Shown here piece by piece: positions 2,046 to 23,792 of a stretch of DNA of 31,220 nucleotides. Source of the stretch: a virus; the IMG/VR virus record IMGVR_UViG_3300032285_002187, positions 1 to 31,220 of that record. One strand, given 5' to 3'. How positions within the stretch are numbered: the stretch's first letter is position 1; every line of letters begins with the position of its first letter. The translations under genes were made by a program, and so were the position numbers. The notes under the pieces were generated by a model that was given only the letters and a program-made list of their open reading frames with translations, made no database searches and was not told the origin of the DNA.

Positions 2046-2187
2046 GATAATCACTTCAATTACTGAAATTATTGGAGCAGGTTTGATAGCTCTTGGCATC
2101 GGATTTATTTTTGGAAAAGGCGCTGCATTTGTAGTAGCAGGAATTTTTGTAATTGCAGGAAGTTATTTGGCAGGTAATAATCAATGA
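2038..2187 (+). CDS. Small two-helix membrane protein
   Basis: A 49-residue protein of unknown function, almost entirely hydrophobic: two predicted membrane helices (about residues 9-22 and 26-43) joined by a short FGKG turn. The ATG at 2038 is preceded by GGAGG at 2027-2031 with good spacing, so this start is preferred over longer upstream readings in the same frame. It overlaps the end of terL by 8 bp and the portal start by 4 bp (ATGA), so it is embedded in the head operon. Small membrane proteins occur here in other actinophages without an assigned role. It is probably a real gene because of the strong ribosome-binding site and tight overlaps on both sides. Confidence 0.75.
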   Translation: MREIITSITEIIGAGLIALGIGFIFGKGAAFVVAGIFVIAGSYLAGNNQ

Positions 2188-3404
2188 GCATTTTCACCAG
2201 AGGCTTCACAGTAGGTCGATATCCTCAGTTCAACAACTATGTTTCACCATTGAGTCAGCTCTATGGTCAAACATCGATGACTTCAGCTGCCGGCGAGCGC
2301 ATCGATGAATGGACTGCTCTTGGCGTATCAGCAGTTTTGAGTTCAGTATCTTTGCTTGCAGATTCAGTTGCTTCAATGCCTCTTCGCTCATTTGAAATTG
2401 CTAAAGATGGCAAGCGTGTGATGCGACCATTGCCAGATGTTCTTTCCGATCCTGATCCTGAATCAAACACCTATGAATTGATTCATCAAATTGTTGCTTC
2501 AATGGCTTTGCATGGAAATGCATACATCAAGATCGACAGAGATCGCTCTGGAAATATGATTGGTTTAGTTCCTTTGCATCCTTATCAGATGCAGGTTCTT
2601 CCAACAGGTGATATGACTGGTCGCAGATATTTGCACCTTGGAAATGAAATGAATCGTGAAGATATGCTTCACCTTCGCTGGTTCACTCCTCCACAATCAT
2701 TGGTTGGAATTTCACCATTGAACCAAACTCGAAATTTAGTTGGTTTAGCAATTGCAATGGATCGCCACTTGGCTCAATTTTATGGTGAGGGTGGAACTCC
2801 TTCTTCAGTTCTTGAGACAGATCAAAAACTTACTCTTGATCAGGCTCGCATCATTCAAGGAACTTGGGAAGCAACTCATCGCAGACATCGCAAGCCAGCA
2901 GTTTTGTCTGATGGTTTGAAGTGGAGACCGATCACAACTTCCGCAGCTGATAATGAAATGATTGCAACAAGAGAGCAATTGATCAGAGACATTGCTCGCA
3001 TCTTCCGCATCCCATCACATTTGATTGGTGCAACTGGAGACAATCAGACTTATCAGAATGTTGAACAAGCATCTTTGAACTTCCTAACACATACCATTGC
3101 TCCTTGGATTCGTAGAATTGAAATTGCAATTTCAAAGATTCTTGATCCGGGTGTTGATGTTGCATTTGATACTTCTTCAATTTTGAGAACAGATGCTTTG
3201 ACTCGTGCTAGAGTAAACTCAATCAACATTTCAATGGGCGCTCGCACTCCAAATGAAGTTCGCCAAATTGAAGGTTTGGAACCTTATGATGGCGGAGATG
3301 AATTTGCTCAATCTCTTGTTGGCAATGTAACAGCCGGAGGTCAATTACCTACACTTGGAACTGATGATGATCCATCTGCTCCAATTATGGGAGTTCTTGA
3401 ATAA
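2184..3404 (+). CDS. Portal protein (HK97 family)
   Basis: Forms the dodecameric ring at one capsid vertex through which DNA passes and to which connectors attach. The 406-residue protein has the HK97 portal hallmarks: an N-terminal region TALGVSAVLSSVSLLADSVA that is typical of the family, MPLRSFE, a middle LHGNAYIKIDRD segment, PLHPYQM, and the C-terminal clip and stem region with IARIFRIPSHLIG and NVEQASLNFLTHTIAPW. Length is normal (about 400). The start overlaps the preceding gene by ATGA, and the stop shares a base with the next start. It sits between terL and the maturation protease, exactly as expected. Confidence 0.95.
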   Translation: MSIFTRGFTVGRYPQFNNYVSPLSQLYGQTSMTSAAGERIDEWTALGVSAVLSSVSLLADSVASMPLRSFEIAKDGKRVMRPLPDVLSDPDPESNTYELIHQIVASMALHGNAYIKIDRDRSGNMIGLVPLHPYQMQVLPTGDMTGRRYLHLGNEMNREDMLHLRWFTPPQSLVGISPLNQTRNLVGLAIAMDRHLAQFYGEGGTPSSVLETDQKLTLDQARIIQGTWEATHRRHRKPAVLSDGLKWRPITTSAADNEMIATREQLIRDIARIFRIPSHLIGATGDNQTYQNVEQASLNFLTHTIAPWIRRIEIAISKILDPGVDVAFDTSSILRTDALTRARVNSINISMGARTPNEVRQIEGLEPYDGGDEFAQSLVGNVTAGGQLPTLGTDDDPSAPIMGVLE

Positions 3405-5587
3405 TGGCTGAAACATACAGACCGCCTAAAGGCGTTCAAGATGAAGCAAAGAGAGCGCTCGCTTGGATTGCAGATGGTAAAGCCGGTTCAGGATTTACAG
3501 CTGTTGGAAGAAAGAGAGCATCTGATTTGGCTTCAGGAAAGCCAATAAGCGCTCAAACAATTTTGAGAATGTACTCATTCTTCAAAAGACATGAAGTAGA
3601 TAAAAAAGCAGAAGGTTTCAATTCTGGTGAAGATGGATTTCCATCAGCTGGAAGAGTTGCATGGTCAGCTTGGGGTGGCGATGCAGGATTTTCTTGGTCA
3701 AACAAAATAAGAAATTCAATTACAAACAGCGCAAGAGCGCTTTCCCTAATAGCCGAGGAGAATGACATGGCTGATATGAATCAAGTTCCTGATCTAAATG
3801 AGGAACTTACTGAGCTTCTTGCTGATGTTTTCAGCTTCTATCTTAGAGCGCATGGCGCTCACTGGAATGTTGTTGGTGCAGACTTTGCTGAATACCACAA
3901 ATTGTTCCAAAAAATTTATGAAGATGTTTATGAGTCAGTCGATCCAATCGCAGAAAATCTTCGCAAATTAGGATCAAAGGCTCCATTTCAACTTACACAA
4001 TTTTTATCACTTCGCACATTAGAAGATGCTGGTGTAGTTTCTCAAGACCCAAGAGCATTAGCAATGGATTTATTACAAGCAAATGATATTTTGCTTGATG
4101 AAATTTCAGATGCCTTTGATTGTGCAACTGCTTATGGACAACAAGGCGTTGCAAACTTCCTTGCAAGTCGCATGGATCAACATCAATTGTGGAAATGGCA
4201 ACTATCAGCATCTCTTGGCTTAGAGGTTGCAGTTGCAAATCCTGATCCAGTAAATGATCAAGGCGTTGATGAAGATGATGTTGAAGAGCAGGTCGAAGGT
4301 ATGACCATGCCTATGATGATGACTTATTCAGCTGAGAGATCAGCATCTGGAGCATCTGATTTGCCAATCGCTGCAAGAGATCGCACTTGGGATGCAGCAG
4401 CAGCTGACAAGAGAGTTCAAGAATATGCCGGTGGCAAAGACAAAATGGATTGGGCTAAGTATGGAAAAGCCTTCTTCTATGTTGATCCTGAAAAGAAAGA
4501 ATTATTGGGTGGCTACAAACTTGGATTTGCTGATGTAATTGATGGCAAATTAGTTGCAGTTCCTAAAGGAATCTTTGCAGTAGCAGCAGTTCTTCAAGGT
4601 TCTCGTGGCGGAGTAGATATTCCAAACGATGATAAAGAAGCAATCAAATCTAAAGTTGCAGCATATTACAATCGAATGGCAAAAGAGTTTGATGACAAAA
4701 ACATCAAGGCTCCATTTGAGGATCGTGCCTCAGCAGCTCGCATCGGAGAAGGTTCATTTGTATCTTGGAACACTTCAAATGGTCGTGCTAGAGGAAAAGT
4801 TGAAAAGGTAATTACCAAAGGTCAAGCAACTTCATCCGATGGTTATGTACTTGAAGCAACTTCTGATGCTCCAGTGTTCAAAATTCGCATTTACAAAGAA
4901 CAGGGCAATGGATATATTCCAACAGATACAGTCGTTGTTCATCGCAATGATTATCTAACTATTACCAGCGCACTCCCAGCGCCACGATCAGAGGATGTCT
5001 CAATGATTGAAGAACGCAAAACAATGATTCGCAATGCTGAACAAATTACAATGAATGCTGAAGTTCGTGCAGTCAAAACTGATGATGGCACACTTCGCAT
5101 TGGTGGTTACGCAGCAACATTTGGAAATGAAGCAACTGGTCTGAACTTCAGAGAAGTTATTGCACCGGGAGCATTCACTCGCACCCTTGCTTCAGATAAC
5201 CCAATCTTCCTTCTAATCAATCACGATATGGAACAACTTCCACTTGCATCAACCAAGTCTGGAACCCTTCGCCTAAGTGAAGATTCAGTTGGACTTCGCA
5301 TGGAAGCTGACCTTGATCCAAACAATCCAAGAGCAGTTGAACTTGCTTCAGCACTATCTCGAGGCGATGTGGACAAAATGTCATTTGCATTTACAGTCGC
5401 ACCCGGCGGAGATACTCGTGAAGAAGGACTTCGCACTCTAACTGATCTTGATCTATATGAAGTTTCTGTTGTAAACCTCCCTGCTTATGAGGCAACAGCA
5501 GTTGGCATGAGAAATTCGCAAGAAGATTTGAATCTTCGCAAGCGAAAGATCAAAGCCAAATTCAATCATTCTCGCTTGAAGAAATAG
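3404..5587 (+). CDS. Multidomain prohead-protease polyprotein with a Dps/ferritin-like domain
   Basis: A 727-residue protein, over three times the length of an ordinary HK97 protease. Modules in order: residues 1-106, a region (PPKGVQDEAKRAL, GFTAVGRKRAS, GRVAWSAWGGD) of a type I recognise beside phage head genes; 130-272, a Dps-like four-helix domain with AHWNVVGADF; 325-438, a phage-associated region (DKMDWAKYGKAFFY, FADVIDGKLVAVPKGIF, RGGVDIP); 445-520, a small beta domain resembling DUF2945/TUDOR; 553-705, the HK97 (U35) protease with H607 in INHD and S660 in KMSFAF, plus LYEVSVVNLPAYEA. Aligned to E. coli Dps, H51, H63, D78 and E82 match H153, H165, D180 and E184; D67 is Q169. The protease should mature the capsid. 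The Dps part could be packaged, bind DNA or store iron, but that is inference. The frame is open throughout, so no frameshift explains the fusion. Confidence 0.9.
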   Translation: MAETYRPPKGVQDEAKRALAWIADGKAGSGFTAVGRKRASDLASGKPISAQTILRMYSFFKRHEVDKKAEGFNSGEDGFPSAGRVAWSAWGGDAGFSWSNKIRNSITNSARALSLIAEENDMADMNQVPDLNEELTELLADVFSFYLRAHGAHWNVVGADFAEYHKLFQKIYEDVYESVDPIAENLRKLGSKAPFQLTQFLSLRTLEDAGVVSQDPRALAMDLLQANDILLDEISDAFDCATAYGQQGVANFLASRMDQHQLWKWQLSASLGLEVAVANPDPVNDQGVDEDDVEEQVEGMTMPMMMTYSAERSASGASDLPIAARDRTWDAAAADKRVQEYAGGKDKMDWAKYGKAFFYVDPEKKELLGGYKLGFADVIDGKLVAVPKGIFAVAAVLQGSRGGVDIPNDDKEAIKSKVAAYYNRMAKEFDDKNIKAPFEDRASAARIGEGSFVSWNTSNGRARGKVEKVITKGQATSSDGYVLEATSDAPVFKIRIYKEQGNGYIPTDTVVVHRNDYLTITSALPAPRSEDVSMIEERKTMIRNAEQITMNAEVRAVKTDDGTLRIGGYAATFGNEATGLNFREVIAPGAFTRTLASDNPIFLLINHDMEQLPLASTKSGTLRLSEDSVGLRMEADLDPNNPRAVELASALSRGDVDKMSFAFTVAPGGDTREEGLRTLTDLDLYEVSVVNLPAYEATAVGMRNSQEDLNLRKRKIKAKFNHSRLKK
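3755..3769 (+). promoter_or_regulatory. Internal ribosome-binding site and in-frame ATG before the Dps domain
   Basis: GAGGAG at 3755-3760 lies six bases before an ATG at 3767 that is in frame (Met122 of the polyprotein) and begins MADMNQVPDLNEE, directly ahead of the Dps-like domain. Spacing is ideal. Initiation here would give a 606-residue protein with the Dps domain near its N-terminus. The motif and frame are read directly; use of the site is inferred. Confidence 0.55.
4991..5005 (+). promoter_or_regulatory. Internal ribosome-binding site and in-frame ATG before the protease domain
   Basis: GAGG at 4991-4994 precedes an in-frame ATG at 5003 (Met534) by eight bases. Translation from here would give a protein of about 194 residues made of the HK97 protease domain alone, close to the ordinary length of stand-alone prohead proteases. 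The site is weaker than the one at 3755 because ATG and GAGG are common in this composition. Confidence 0.4.
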
Positions 5588-5654: not shown

Positions 5655-7004
5655 ATGTCATTAGCATCAAAACTTCGTGAACAGCGTGATGCCGCAGCAT
5701 TAGCAGCAGAAGAAATTCTTGCAGCTGATGAAGTAACTGCTGAAGCATTAGAGACTGTTGAAGCGAAGCATGAAGAAATCGCAGCTCTTGATGAGCGCAT
5801 TGCAACTGCCGAAAAGGTAGAGGCACGCACAGCAGCAATTGCTGAATCACGCAAGGAAGCAAAGGTCGCTACATTTGGCGGCGCAGTTGTAACTCGTGAG
5901 GCAATGACCTACGATCGTGATGGAAAGAACTCTTTCGTTCGCGATATGATCGGCGCACAACTTCGCAACGATCGTTCATCTTGGGAGCGCTTAGCTCGTC
6001 ACCAACAAGAAGTTGCAGTTGAAACTCGCGACATCTCACGCACTGATGGTGCTGGTGGAGATTTCGTTCCACCTATCTACTTGATCAATGAATACGCAGA
6101 GTTTGCTCGTGCAGCTCGTGTAACAGCTGACCTTGTAACAAATATGGCACTTCCAGCAGGAACAGACAGCATCAACATACCTCAAATCACAACAGGTACA
6201 TTGGCTGCATTCCAATCTGCTGATAACGCAGCAACAACAACTCGCGATATGGTGTCAAGCACTGTAACAGCTCCAGTTCGTACAATCTCAGGTTATGAGA
6301 ATGTATCTATCCAATTGGTTGAGCAATCACCTTTGGCTGGTGGACTTGATCGCCTAGTATTTGGCGATTTGATGGCTGACTATGCATTACAACTAAACAC
6401 AGCAGTTGTTGGAACCGGCGATGGAACATCAGGAACTCTAAAGGGTCTAATCACTCTTGGAACTGATACAACCAACGGCATCCCTACAACTTGGACTGAA
6501 TCAAGTCCATCAGCTGTAAATGGTGCAATTGCAATCGCTAAGGCGATTTCAAAGGTTGTAACAAACCGCTACAAGCAAGCAGAAGCAATTATCATGCACC
6601 CATCAATGTGGTACTGGTTTGCATCACAAGTTGATGGATCAAACCGCCCACTTGTTGTTCCAGTAACTGGTGCTTCTTCTGCATTCAACGCAGCAGGTAC
6701 AATTACAAATCCGGGCGCTCCAGCAGGTCTTGTTGGTACAATTCAAGGAGTACCAGTATTCCTTGATGCTACAGTAACAAAGGCTTACGGCGCATCAACA
6801 AACCAATCTCCAATTCTTGTTGGTAAGTTCTCAGATTCTTACCTATTCGAATCAGGTGTAAAGACTCGCGTACTTCCAGATGTACTTTCAAGCAACCTAA
6901 CAGTTCGCTTCCAAGTTTACGGATATGCAGCTCTTGCACACCGCTTCAACAAGTCTGTTTCAGCAATTACTGGAACAGGAACTGTTGCTCCTTCTGGCTA
7001 CTAA
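5655..7004 (+). CDS. Major capsid protein (HK97 fold)
   Basis: Builds the icosahedral shell. The 449-residue protein begins with a charged, alanine- and glutamate-rich helical region (about residues 1-75), the usual delta or scaffold domain removed by the prohead protease. The HK97-fold part follows: GGDFVPPIYLINEY, the LPAGTDSINIPQI stretch, TRTISGYENVSIQLVEQSP-like strands, ADYALQLNTAVVGTGDGTSGTLKG, IIMHPSMWYW and a C-terminal beta region ending RFQVYGYAALAHRFNKSV. Length and order match the family. AAAGGAG at 5643-5649 gives a strong start at 5655. A structured RNA follows the stop (see 7016-7066), fitting a highly expressed gene. The preceding 67-bp gap has a G+C-rich stretch with only a weak hairpin. 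Confidence 0.95.
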   Translation: MSLASKLREQRDAAALAAEEILAADEVTAEALETVEAKHEEIAALDERIATAEKVEARTAAIAESRKEAKVATFGGAVVTREAMTYDRDGKNSFVRDMIGAQLRNDRSSWERLARHQQEVAVETRDISRTDGAGGDFVPPIYLINEYAEFARAARVTADLVTNMALPAGTDSINIPQITTGTLAAFQSADNAATTTRDMVSSTVTAPVRTISGYENVSIQLVEQSPLAGGLDRLVFGDLMADYALQLNTAVVGTGDGTSGTLKGLITLGTDTTNGIPTTWTESSPSAVNGAIAIAKAISKVVTNRYKQAEAIIMHPSMWYWFASQVDGSNRPLVVPVTGASSAFNAAGTITNPGAPAGLVGTIQGVPVFLDATVTKAYGASTNQSPILVGKFSDSYLFESGVKTRVLPDVLSSNLTVRFQVYGYAALAHRFNKSVSAITGTGTVAPSGY

Positions 7005-7082: not shown

Positions 7083-7232
7083 ATGAAATCTATATTTCTT
7101 GAAGGTTTGAAAACTGCCAGAGATTATTTGAAATACAATGGCGGAGTTGCTGCTCTTGATAAATTGATTGAAGAGCATGAAAAAGGCGAGATTGAAACTG
7201 CAACTCGAAAACCAAAAATGGAAGCTAGATGA
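7083..7232 (+). CDS. Small hypothetical protein (49 aa)
   Basis: A 49-residue, charged, mostly helical protein beginning MKSIFLEGLKTARDYL and ending KPKMEAR. I do not recognise a family. It has a strong ribosome-binding site (AGGGGG at 7072-7077, five bases before the ATG at 7083), and its stop overlaps the ATG of the glycosyltransferase gene (ATGA at 7229), so the two are probably co-translated. It is the first gene after the structured element that follows the capsid gene. The good start and the coupling make it a likely real gene. Confidence 0.7.
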   Translation: MKSIFLEGLKTARDYLKYNGGVAALDKLIEEHEKGEIETATRKPKMEAR

Positions 7233-7963
7233 GACCAAAAGATAGAGTTTGCATCGGAATGGTAAACAATGGAACCATCGATGCATTGTTAGCAATTGAT
7301 TTGATTCATATTGCAAGAGATAAAAATGGTCATTTCGACCACATGGTTCAAGTGGGCAATGTCGGACTCACTACTCGATCACGCAATGTTGTGGTCAAAA
7401 CATTTTTAGAAACAACTGATGCTAATTGGCTTTTGATGATCGACTCAGATGAGAGATTATCAATTGATACTTGGCGAAAATTGATTGCATCAGCTGATGA
7501 GAAAGAAAGACCAATTGTTTCCGGTCTAATATTTGCAGCATTCTTCGACAATGAAGATCAACTTCGACCAGTTCCAACCATTTATCGAATGAATATGGAG
7601 ACCGGTCTTCAACCAATGGATGATTATCCTTTGAATGAATTGATCGAGGTCGATGCAGTCGGAACAGGTTGCATTCTTATTCATCGCAGTGTTCTTCTTG
7701 ATATGCAAAAAAATGCAACTCCAAATCAAGGAAAAGATTGGGCTTGGTTCGTAGAAGGCGCAATCGATGGAACTTACTTTGGCGAGGATTTATTATTTTC
7801 CAAGCGATTGAAATCGATGGGATATAAAATCTTTGCTCATACTGGAGCGATACTTCCGCATCATAAACAATTTTGGCTTGATCAAAGACATCACGCAGCA
7901 TTGCGTGAGATCACACTATTGAAAGACAAGTCAGTTGTACCCCTGACAACTGACTTGTCCTAA
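7229..7963 (+). CDS. Glycosyltransferase, GT-A fold, family 2-like
   Basis: Probably transfers a sugar from a nucleotide-sugar donor, either to a virion protein or to a host glycan. The 244-residue protein has the GT-A plan: an N-terminal Rossmann-like half, a DSD metal-binding motif at residues 72-74 in WLLMIDSDERL, the acceptor-side VDAVGTGCILIHRSVL at about 141-156, and GEDLLFSKRLKSMGYKIFAHTG at about 185-206, a typical family-2 C-terminal motif. It has no membrane helix, so it is probably cytoplasmic. The start overlaps the preceding gene by ATGA. The last codons encode the left arm of a long hairpin (7925-7959). Its position between capsid and fibre genes suggests a structural protein as substrate, which is inference. 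Confidence 0.82.
   Translation: MRPKDRVCIGMVNNGTIDALLAIDLIHIARDKNGHFDHMVQVGNVGLTTRSRNVVVKTFLETTDANWLLMIDSDERLSIDTWRKLIASADEKERPIVSGLIFAAFFDNEDQLRPVPTIYRMNMETGLQPMDDYPLNELIEVDAVGTGCILIHRSVLLDMQKNATPNQGKDWAWFVEGAIDGTYFGEDLLFSKRLKSMGYKIFAHTGAILPHHKQFWLDQRHHAALREITLLKDKSVVPLTTDLS
7925..7959 (+). terminator. Perfect 14-bp hairpin at the end of the glycosyltransferase gene
   Basis: GACAAGTCAGTTGT (7925-7938) and ACAACTGACTTGTC (7946-7959) are perfect inverted complements with a 7-base loop. The structure lies in the last codons of the glycosyltransferase gene and ends one base before its TAA. No T-run follows, so it may be a factor-dependent terminator or an mRNA-stabilising or attenuating element before the collagen-like gene. 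Confidence 0.65.
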
Positions 7964-7977
7964 CATCTAAGGACTAA

Positions 7978-9612
<1,635 letters not shown>

Positions 9613-11274: not shown

Positions 11275-12351
11275 GTGAAAATAGGGGTATATTCAATAGC
11301 GCTCAATGAAGCGAAATTCATCGAGCGCTGGTATCAATCAGCAAAAGAAGCTGATTTCATCTTGATCGCCGATACTGGATCAACTGATGAAACTGTTGAG
11401 ATAGCAAAAAAACTTGGTATAAATATCATTTCCATCTCCATAAAACCTTGGAGATTTGATGATGCTAGAAATGCAGCTCTTGCTCATATCCCATCTGATA
11501 TAGATTATTGCATCGCTTTAGATATTGATGAACAATTGCAATCAGGTTGGCGAAATGAACTTGAAAAAATTGAACCGACTGCAACAAGACCAAGATACAA
11601 ATATATTTGGAGTTGGAATCCTGATGGTTCTGCCGGGCTTACTTATGGCGGAGACAAGATTCATTCTAGGGTTGGCTATCGCTGGAAACACCCAGTTCAC
11701 GAGACTCTGACCTATCAAGGCGAGGAAAAACAAGTTTGGACAAAACTTGAAATTCATCATCATCCAGATGAATCTAAATCTCGCAGTCAATACTTTCCAT
11801 TGCTTAGACAAGCTGTAATGGAAGACCTTTCTGATGATAGAAATTGTTTTTATTATGCAAGAGAACTTTATTTTCACAATTTTTACACCGAAGCCATAAA
11901 AGAATTCAATCGACATTTATCACTTCCAAAGGCAGTTTGGAAACCAGAGCGAGCAGCATCAATGAGATACCTTGCCAAGATGGATGTTGATAATAAACAA
12001 AGTTGGTTGTTCAAGGCAATGGCAGAATCGCCAAATAGTCGAGAACCAATTGTTGATTTGGCTGAGTATTATTACTCAAAAGAGCAATGGCTTCAATGCT
12101 ACTCAACAGCTCATCAAGCCTTGTTACTTACTCAGCAACCGCTTGAATATCTTGTTGAAGCAGATGCTTGGGGATACCTTCCTCACGATCTGATTGCAAT
12201 TTCATCCTACAGACTTGGCAATTTCAAAGAAGCGCTTGAACAAGGTTTGATTGCTTATGAAAAAGCACCTTGGATTGAAAGGCTTGCGGATAATTTAGAA
12301 TTTTACAAAGGAGCTGTAAATGACTCAGATGCAATCAAGGACAGTATCTAG
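11275..12351 (+). CDS. Glycosyltransferase family 2 with C-terminal helical repeats
   Basis: A 358-residue enzyme. The N-terminal GT-A domain has IALNEAKFIERWY (8-20), ADTGSTDET (32-40), WRFDDARNAAL and the DID metal motif at 83-85 in ALDIDEQL, all typical of GT2 enzymes. Residues from about 185 onward are helical and TPR-like (YYARELYFHNFYTEAIKEFNRHL; EYYYSKEQWLQCYSTAHQAL; AISSYRLGNFKEALEQG), an arrangement found in some O-linked glycosyltransferases. The start is GTG at 11275 with no clear ribosome-binding site. The gene overlaps the next start by 32 bp. It probably glycosylates a virion protein or modifies a host glycan; the substrate is not visible. Confidence 0.82.
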   Translation: MKIGVYSIALNEAKFIERWYQSAKEADFILIADTGSTDETVEIAKKLGINIISISIKPWRFDDARNAALAHIPSDIDYCIALDIDEQLQSGWRNELEKIEPTATRPRYKYIWSWNPDGSAGLTYGGDKIHSRVGYRWKHPVHETLTYQGEEKQVWTKLEIHHHPDESKSRSQYFPLLRQAVMEDLSDDRNCFYYARELYFHNFYTEAIKEFNRHLSLPKAVWKPERAASMRYLAKMDVDNKQSWLFKAMAESPNSREPIVDLAEYYYSKEQWLQCYSTAHQALLLTQQPLEYLVEADAWGYLPHDLIAISSYRLGNFKEALEQGLIAYEKAPWIERLADNLEFYKGAVNDSDAIKDSI

Positions 12352-23057: not shown

Positions 23058-23410
23058 TGAGCAAAGCAAAGGCAAAAGGTACGAGCGCTGAAAGCGCTTT
23101 GGTGAAGTATTTGGTTGCTCAGGGTTATCCAAATGCAGAACGCCGGGCGCTTTCAGGTTCAAATGATATGGGTGATGTATCAGGTTGTTTTGGTTTGGTG
23201 TGGGAGGTAAAGAATCATAAAACTTATTCCATACCTGCTTGGCTTGAAGAAACTCAAATTGAAGCTGAAAATGCCAATGCTGATTTCGGAATTCTTGCAG
23301 TAAAACCAAATAAAGTTGGATTAGGAAATGTTGAAAACTGGTGGGCGATTATGACCATCAAAGATGTTGTGAATCTACTTAGAGATGCTGGCTATGGCGA
23401 TCCACGATGA
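23057..23410 (+). CDS. Holliday-junction resolvase-like nuclease
   Basis: A 117-residue PD-(D/E)XK nuclease with E12 in GTSAESALVKYL, D40 in NDMGDVSG and E50-V-K52 in VWEVKNH; the following AWLEETQIEAENANADFGILAVK matches the core helix and strand of small archaeal-type or phage resolvases (RuvC-unrelated, Hjc/VRR-like). It could resolve branched replication intermediates ahead of packaging. The start is GTG at 23057 with only GGGA before it, and it overlaps the previous stop by one base. The end overlaps the WhiB gene by 26 bp. Confidence 0.72.
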   Translation: MSKAKAKGTSAESALVKYLVAQGYPNAERRALSGSNDMGDVSGCFGLVWEVKNHKTYSIPAWLEETQIEAENANADFGILAVKPNKVGLGNVENWWAIMTIKDVVNLLRDAGYGDPR

Positions 23411-23792
23411 ATTCAACGCTACCTTCTTCCCAAGTTTCCCAAAGGCTCAATGTCGCAATCTCAATGGAGATGATTTCTTCCCGGACTCAAAACAAGAGCT
23501 TGAAGAGCGACTACCAGCAATCAAACAAATTTGTGACAGCTGTATCCACCAAATTGACTGTTACTCCTTTGCAGTCATTCACCAAGTTGAAGGAATTTGG
23601 GCTGGAACAACCTATGAGGAGAGAAAGCGAAACTTCAGAGATCAGGAAATCAGAGGTAAGAAAATCGCTGATGTCCTTGAAAAACTATCAAATGGCTTTA
23701 CTGTTGAAGAGATCGCCAAAATGCAAGGAGTCAAAATCTCCTCAGTTGAGCGATTACTACTCAGAGCAAAGCAACGAGGAGTTATCAAATGA
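23385..23792 (+). CDS. WhiB-family transcription factor with extra C-terminal HTH
   Basis: A 135-residue protein. The WhiB iron-sulfur cluster cysteines are all present: C23, C50, C53 and C59, in the C-x2-C-x5-C layout, followed by GIWAGTT (70-76), the WhiB turn. WhiB proteins bind [4Fe-4S] clusters and sigma factor region 4 and act as redox- or NO-sensitive regulators in Actinobacteria. Residues 92-134 form a helix-turn-helix-like C-terminal part (IADVLEKLSNGFTVEEIAKMQGVKISSVERLLLRAK), more than many WhiB proteins have, which could bind DNA. Start is ATG 23385, with ATG 23394 as an alternative. It overlaps the transglycosylase gene by ATGA. It probably reprograms host or phage promoters. Confidence 0.93.
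   Translation: MLAMAIHDEFNATFFPSFPKAQCRNLNGDDFFPDSKQELEERLPAIKQICDSCIHQIDCYSFAVIHQVEGIWAGTTYEERKRNFRDQEIRGKKIADVLEKLSNGFTVEEIAKMQGVKISSVERLLLRAKQRGVIK

Follow-up and report, generated by a model that had tools for sequence, protein, structure and literature searches.

In the viral DNA stretch IMGVR_UViG_3300032285_002187 (IMG/VR, positions 1 to 31,220; the whole of these 31,220 nucleotides is called the window below), one open frame of 727 codons joins a Dps/ferritin-like domain to an HK97-type prohead protease. The fusion recurs among uncultured bacterial viruses that form a large group: the Dps, protease and N-terminal regions of the protein were used to scan viral contigs, and 101 distinct open reading frames (ORFs) were found that encode both Dps and protease without a break, 90 of them complete. 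We read the gene as encoding a capsid-maturation polyprotein, in which the protease would carry a Dps-type ferroxidase into the prohead; there the ferroxidase would protect DNA and head proteins against iron and peroxide, without condensing the DNA; we put the probability of this reading at about 0.48. The central features are:

3404-5587, plus strand: Dps-prohead protease fusion gene, 727 aa (open frame, Pfam and PHROG matches, 101 distinct relatives)
3800-4219, plus strand: Dps/ferritin-like domain, residues 133-272 (Pfam, AlphaFold, Foldseek, VIA-align)
5057-5518, plus strand: S78 prohead protease domain, residues 552-705 (Pfam PF04586, 140.6 bits, E 7e-41)
5222-5224, plus strand: catalytic H607 (invariant in 38 fused proteins)
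5381-5383, plus strand: catalytic S660 (invariant in 38 fused proteins)

The Dps domain was identified by profile, sequence and structure comparisons. Pfam Ferritin (PF00210) matches residues 133-272 with an E-value of 1.7e-13 and 51.2 bits (cut-off 24.5), and PHROG 3636, a phage Dps-type 'DNA binding protein' family, matches residues 126-271 with an E-value of 7e-21. A sequence search of solved structures returned Dps/ferritin-like proteins only, some of them engineered chimeras; P. aeruginosa PA0962 and V. cholerae Dps lead, and the top PDB match is 8ff9, P. aeruginosa Dps (E 4.5e-16). Residues M122-280 were modelled by AlphaFold2 using an alignment of 41 of their own relatives. The model contains four long helices and a short BC helix; its predicted local distance difference test (pLDDT) score is 92 and its predicted template modelling (pTM) score is 0.87. 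Dps structures occur throughout the top 50 Foldseek matches, and VIA-align places residues 8..156 of the model on residues 7..156 of L. innocua Dps (1qgh) with a Z-score of 22.0 and a root-mean-square deviation of 1.6 Å over 149 residues. The AlphaFold model of the full-length protein was too weak (pLDDT 67.7, pTM 0.31) and was not used. Chance similarity and an assembly chimera are both ruled out by the 101 distinct ORFs and the clean profile and fold matches.

In the Dps family, the ferroxidase sites lie between subunits and are built from H/H/D/D/E ligands; its members assemble into a dodecamer of 23 symmetry. In L. innocua Dps, the ligands are H31, H43, D47, D58 and E62, and VIA-align brings the following residues of the fusion protein into register with them:

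3860-3862, plus strand: H153, ferroxidase ligand position (L. innocua H31), invariant in 81/81
3896-3898, plus strand: H165, ferroxidase ligand position (H43), invariant in 81/81
3908-3910, plus strand: Q169, fifth ligand place (D47, or E. coli D67), variable (comparison of relatives)
3941-3943, plus strand: D180, ferroxidase ligand position (D58), invariant in 81/81
3953-3955, plus strand: E184, ferroxidase ligand position (E62), invariant in 81/81

H153, H165, D180 and E184 are unchanged in all 81 distinct fused domains and in 5/5 stand-alone Dps domains, even where identity drops to 37%; across the same 81 and 5 domains, position 169 is occupied by Q, L, N, A, E, M or G. All four ligands fall among the 19 invariant columns of 159, for which the chance is ∼1.5e-4 if columns are picked at random. 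The ratio of non-synonymous to synonymous substitution rates (dN/dS) is ∼0.11 for the Dps domain, which is not above that of the protease (0.15) and indicates strong purifying selection. Judged from these comparisons, selection maintains the metal site, because the four ligands are invariant and dN/dS is low, yet it is not a textbook five-ligand site and is partly altered. A preliminary description of this DNA, made from the letters and their translations, had already given the uninterrupted 727-codon frame with its coordinates and residues, the Dps-like domain ahead of the HK97 protease with H607 and S660, and four of the five ligands in register with Q at the D67 place; the profile searches, the four-helix model and the alignment to 1qgh agree with it on every one of these points.

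The Dps region is acidic, with an isoelectric point (pI) of 4.4 and a net charge of -14. Its flanking tails are acidic as well (pI 4.1) and contain no lysine, and the preceding one has a single arginine; thus there is no lysine-rich DNA-binding tail. Such a tail is of the E. coli type, and several Dps proteins do without one, so it does not define the family. According to the title of the structure entry 1o9r, A. tumefaciens Dps protects DNA without binding it.

The preliminary description had missed the N-terminal module, the mid module, the Tudor-like domain and the two in-frame internal start sites described below. Several further modules surround the two domains:

3419-3709, plus strand: N-terminal module, phrog_2859, residues 6-102, basic (PHROG match)
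4220-4378, plus strand: acidic tail or linker after Dps, DPxxxQGVDEDD... (composition, comparison with the reverse-order fusion L281)
4379-4738, plus strand: mid module, optional (comparison of relatives)
4751-4885, plus strand: Hva1_TUDOR domain, residues 450-494, optional (Pfam, at or above cut-off)

On the protease tree, Dps changes 3 times, compared with 10 changes for the N-terminal module, 16 for the mid module and 15 for the Tudor domain; Dps is therefore the stable partner of the protease. All module junctions are in frame despite the repeated gains and losses, and 13 ORFs consist of just ∼70 residues, Dps and the protease. Among the complete relatives of this clade, none was found with Dps split from the protease. 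Twelve ORFs are without Dps (L134:3463-4755, L105:1956-3917 and ten more), and there the slot mostly holds a different helical module. That such domain swaps recur suggests that the prohead protease is a general carrier for cargo domains. The helical module of the Dps-less ORFs, VMAADAAMDAAQ...DPIVSQAYYLICAADAAL, has no Pfam or PHROGs match; it is often preceded by the same strong internal ribosome site as Dps.

The link between Dps and protease was also found in the opposite order. In L281:5320-6639 (the same ORF as L286:5001-6320), from a phage with a GC content of 61%, the protease occupies residues 17-161 and Dps residues 235-373; like the fusion gene in the window, it is located between portal and major capsid protein (MCP) genes. 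Dps and its acidic tail are 59% identical between L281 and the window, whereas the proteases are just 27% identical, and the tail with the conserved DPxxxQGVDEDD accompanies Dps even in this arrangement. By these comparisons, the link arose at least twice, since the same Dps is N-terminal to one protease and C-terminal to another, different one. This Dps type is repeatedly located in the head gene block: stand-alone Dps genes lie immediately behind the portal gene in L287 (4950-5459) and three genes downstream of TerL in L032 (3756-4223), L033 (7950-8417) and L034 (3683-4147). In L287, the stand-alone Dps is followed by a protein of 1656 aa with a match to phrog_2859, to which the N-terminal module in the window also belongs. 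In L033 and L034, a very long protein follows the stand-alone Dps; a scan of L033 placed a DUF6321 domain in it.

Two start-like sites are located inside the fusion gene, one ahead of each domain:

3755-3760, plus strand: internal Shine-Dalgarno GAGGAG, 6 nucleotides before ATG 3767 (pairing score, kept across relatives)
3767-3769, plus strand: internal start codon M122 at the Dps module, predicted product 606 aa (ribosome-site score)
4990-4995, plus strand: second internal Shine-Dalgarno AGAGGA, 7 nucleotides before ATG 5003 (pairing score, comparison)
5003-5005, plus strand: internal start codon M534 before the protease module, predicted product 194 aa (pairing score, comparison)

The GAGGAG site pairs with the 16S end at -8.9, which is the strongest value of the in-frame starts (first ATG, -6.8). 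Across relatives, the site at the Dps start tops all in-frame ATGs in 69/92 ORFs; its median duplex is -10.6 and that of the pre-protease site is -8.0, compared to -2.1 for in-frame ATGs in general. AGGAG is kept while the encoded residues vary (EEN, EEG, EED, KED, KET, KES, KEN), and its spacing to the ATG stays short. The motif is retained in 6/10 tested Dps-less variants, in which another module fills the slot. In L281, it is again the ATG immediately ahead of Dps, M216, that has the best in-frame site (-7.3); initiation there would produce Dps free of the protease. As these sites are present, more than one product is likely to be made from the gene. The synonymous-codon control on single sequences was not significant (mean p ∼0.22), so the sites count as comparative evidence and not as proof of initiation. 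Alternatively, they may be pause sites or leftovers of the fused genes, with only the full-length protein being made, which is compatible with any of the functions considered below. The indecisive control leaves room for this, and the separate genes of L032-L034 have a ribosome site in the same place; however, the short spacing persists though the amino acids change, the two medians stand far from that of ordinary in-frame ATGs, and the reverse-order fusion has M216 as its best site. We consider full-length protein alone rather unlikely.

S78 prohead proteases cleave the MCP and themselves in the prohead, and HK97-type proteases clear the scaffold before packaging. Since proteases of this type are built into Prohead 1, the fused protein would enter the assembling prohead together with its protease domain, and nested products from M1, M122 and M534 would set the dose of cargo versus free protease. 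During maturation, the protease would cut the flexible acidic linker and then destroy itself; compact Dps would remain, probably as a cage, in the head or until packaging is complete, and its survival of the self-digestion is plausible owing to the compact fold and the flexible linker. It would bind Fe2+ and oxidise it with peroxide, thereby limiting Fenton damage both to DNA and to the proteins of the head. HK97 Prohead 1 has ∼60 protease copies (PMC12749128). In the preliminary description, it was proposed that capsid maturation could release a Dps-like protein, which would either guard or condense the packaged DNA or pass into the host on ejection. The guarding part fits the Dps fold, the mostly retained ferroxidase site, the tie to the protease, the low dN/dS and the second, reverse-order fusion; DNA condensation does not fit.

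Some points weigh against a ferroxidase carried into the prohead. Most members lack the fifth ligand, so that ferroxidase activity may be low, and the metal could have a structural role only. The dodecamer might be hindered by the bulky parts fused to either end of Dps. Protease parts can leave the head, because purified Prohead 2 of phage D3 contains cleaved MCP only, with no protease remnants (PMC12749128). In addition, a Dps product in virions is argued by analogy with protease biology, and the internal starts are read from sequence alone. A bolder version, in which virions would carry a working Dps cage and the head would be an encapsulin-like iron and peroxide compartment, loaded by the protease and dosed by the internal starts, is possible but somewhat doubtful.

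The main rival is that Dps serves in assembly: its dimer and dodecamer interfaces would gather protease or prohead subunits, metal would only stabilise the interface, and iron oxidation would be a relic. Dps proteins are established as rigid self-assembling cages, the D67 place is lost in most members, and the unrelated helical module that begins VMAADAAMDAAQ... can occupy the slot, as would be expected if the need were for an oligomerising helix. However, the other four ligands never vary, which is more than a pure scaffold needs, and stand-alone Dps genes of other phages keep the ligands without any protease. We consider such a structural, oligomerising core fairly unlikely.

Less probable still, and quite improbable in our view, is an auxiliary metabolic role, with the fused Dps fighting oxidative stress in the cytoplasm late in infection and the fusion only coupling expression. 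Ferritin is among the genes for defence against reactive oxygen species in freshwater phages (PMC6802176), and stand-alone Dps is known in other phages; but all junctions have stayed in frame although modules were gained and lost many times, a self-destroying protease is a poor fusion partner for a cytoplasmic enzyme, and a protease was fused independently in reverse order. The stronger form of the preliminary description, with Dps condensing the packaged DNA or reaching the host by ejection, is very improbable: although the prohead interior would adjoin DNA and the N-terminal module is basic (pI 9.9), condensation through a lysine tail is ruled out by composition, the acidity of the Dps region and its tails speaks against it, and a folded, intact dodecamer of ∼9 nm (PMC11202242) would hardly pass the tail channel.

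The fusion can be compared with several known systems. Like L. innocua Dps, P. aeruginosa PA0962 and HP-NAP, the Dps domain has the fold, the length and the ligands corresponding to H31, H43, D58 and E62; different from them, it is part of a 606-727 aa capsid protein, the D47 counterpart is replaced, and an acidic tail stands instead of a lysine-rich DNA-binding one. The protease shares with S78 members (PF04586) the domain, the catalytic His and Ser, the place just before the MCP gene and an MCP with a delta-like N-terminus, but it bears a long N-terminal polyprotein part with Dps, optional modules and internal start-like sites. Stand-alone phage Dps proteins (PHROG 3636; Aeromonas, Bacteroides and Lactobacillus phages; L032-L035) are the same domain, keep the ligands in the relatives tested and are in some cases located in head blocks; unlike the fusion, they are separate genes with no tie to a protease.

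Encapsulins and phage capsids have the HK97 fold in common, and the classic cargo of encapsulins is ferritin-like. The closest known idea is the Flp-fusion encapsulin of P. furiosus and S. solfataricus, whose HK97-fold shell component bears a fused ferritin-like protein and so takes it inside (PMC8346489). Both attach a ferritin-like domain to an HK97-fold shell component, and the encapsulins are a precedent for a ferroxidase inside such shells; theirs is a decameric two-helix EncFtn on the protein that forms the shell of a cellular compartment, whereas here a four-helix Dps is on the protease of a tailed phage. Dps on a prohead protease would thus be the virus-side counterpart of encapsulin cargo and offers a direct test of iron handling in virions. 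It bears on the idea that phages carry iron, and on the true site of action of phage 'ferritin' genes that are counted as oxidative-stress helpers.

The Dps fold was found by structure in long viral proteins of UniProt (A0A6J7WPK9, A0A6J7WIS1 and A0A6J5RFH1, from uncultured Caudovirales), which bear the automatic names 'Prohead protease' or 'DNA-binding protein Dps'. As the 'Prohead protease' entries contain the Dps fold, the fusion sequence is already in databases under automatic names. No published description of a Dps-protease fusion was found in a literature search that most subscription papers lie outside. None of 50,697 records of isolated phages covers 80% of the fusion protein.

Is the N-terminal module a prohead carrier or targeting module? 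In Roseobacter phage CRP-406 (L251:3995-6379), a phrog_2859-type N-terminal module heads a 794-aa protein that seemingly joins protease and MCP. The mid module is present too in the head maturation protease of Thermus phage Riverbug. The acidic tail is a possible cleavage or targeting signal; an RS motif follows it in 63/99 linkers, which is too weak to be called a cleavage site.

Outside the fusion gene, three other genes of the window bear on its setting and host:

2184-3404, plus strand: upstream gene, 406 aa, portal by position and sequence reading (gene order)
5655-7004, plus strand: MCP, Phage_capsid PF05065 (profile match)
23385-23792: WhiB-like protein

The start of the fusion gene overlaps the stop of the putative portal gene, and the fusion gene sits between this gene and that of the MCP. 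The MCP is a separate gene, so that Dps is fused to the protease and not to the shell protein; its N-terminal region looks helical and resembles a delta domain. WhiB is taken as a hallmark of actinophages (PMC10202952). Because the window encodes WhiB, the host is likely actinobacterial; it may be from freshwater. Among the 80 loci listed in one scan of bacterial genomes, a single contig has the fusion (L170, 4.7 kb), which was binned as Betaproteobacteria; it is probably a misplaced viral contig, and a host of that class was rejected since WhiB points to actinobacteria. The WhiB-like protein has a helix-turn-helix at its C-terminus, with a weak match to sigma-70 region 4.

The GC content of the window is 42.5%, and no transfer RNA or Rfam match was found within its 31,220 nucleotides. 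A phage protein at 30254-30850 matches a proteasome subunit (PF00227, 6.2e-10). A collagen-like protein with GPTGATG repeats is encoded at 7981-9612, and two glycosyltransferase-like genes are located nearby (7229-7963 and 11275-12351).

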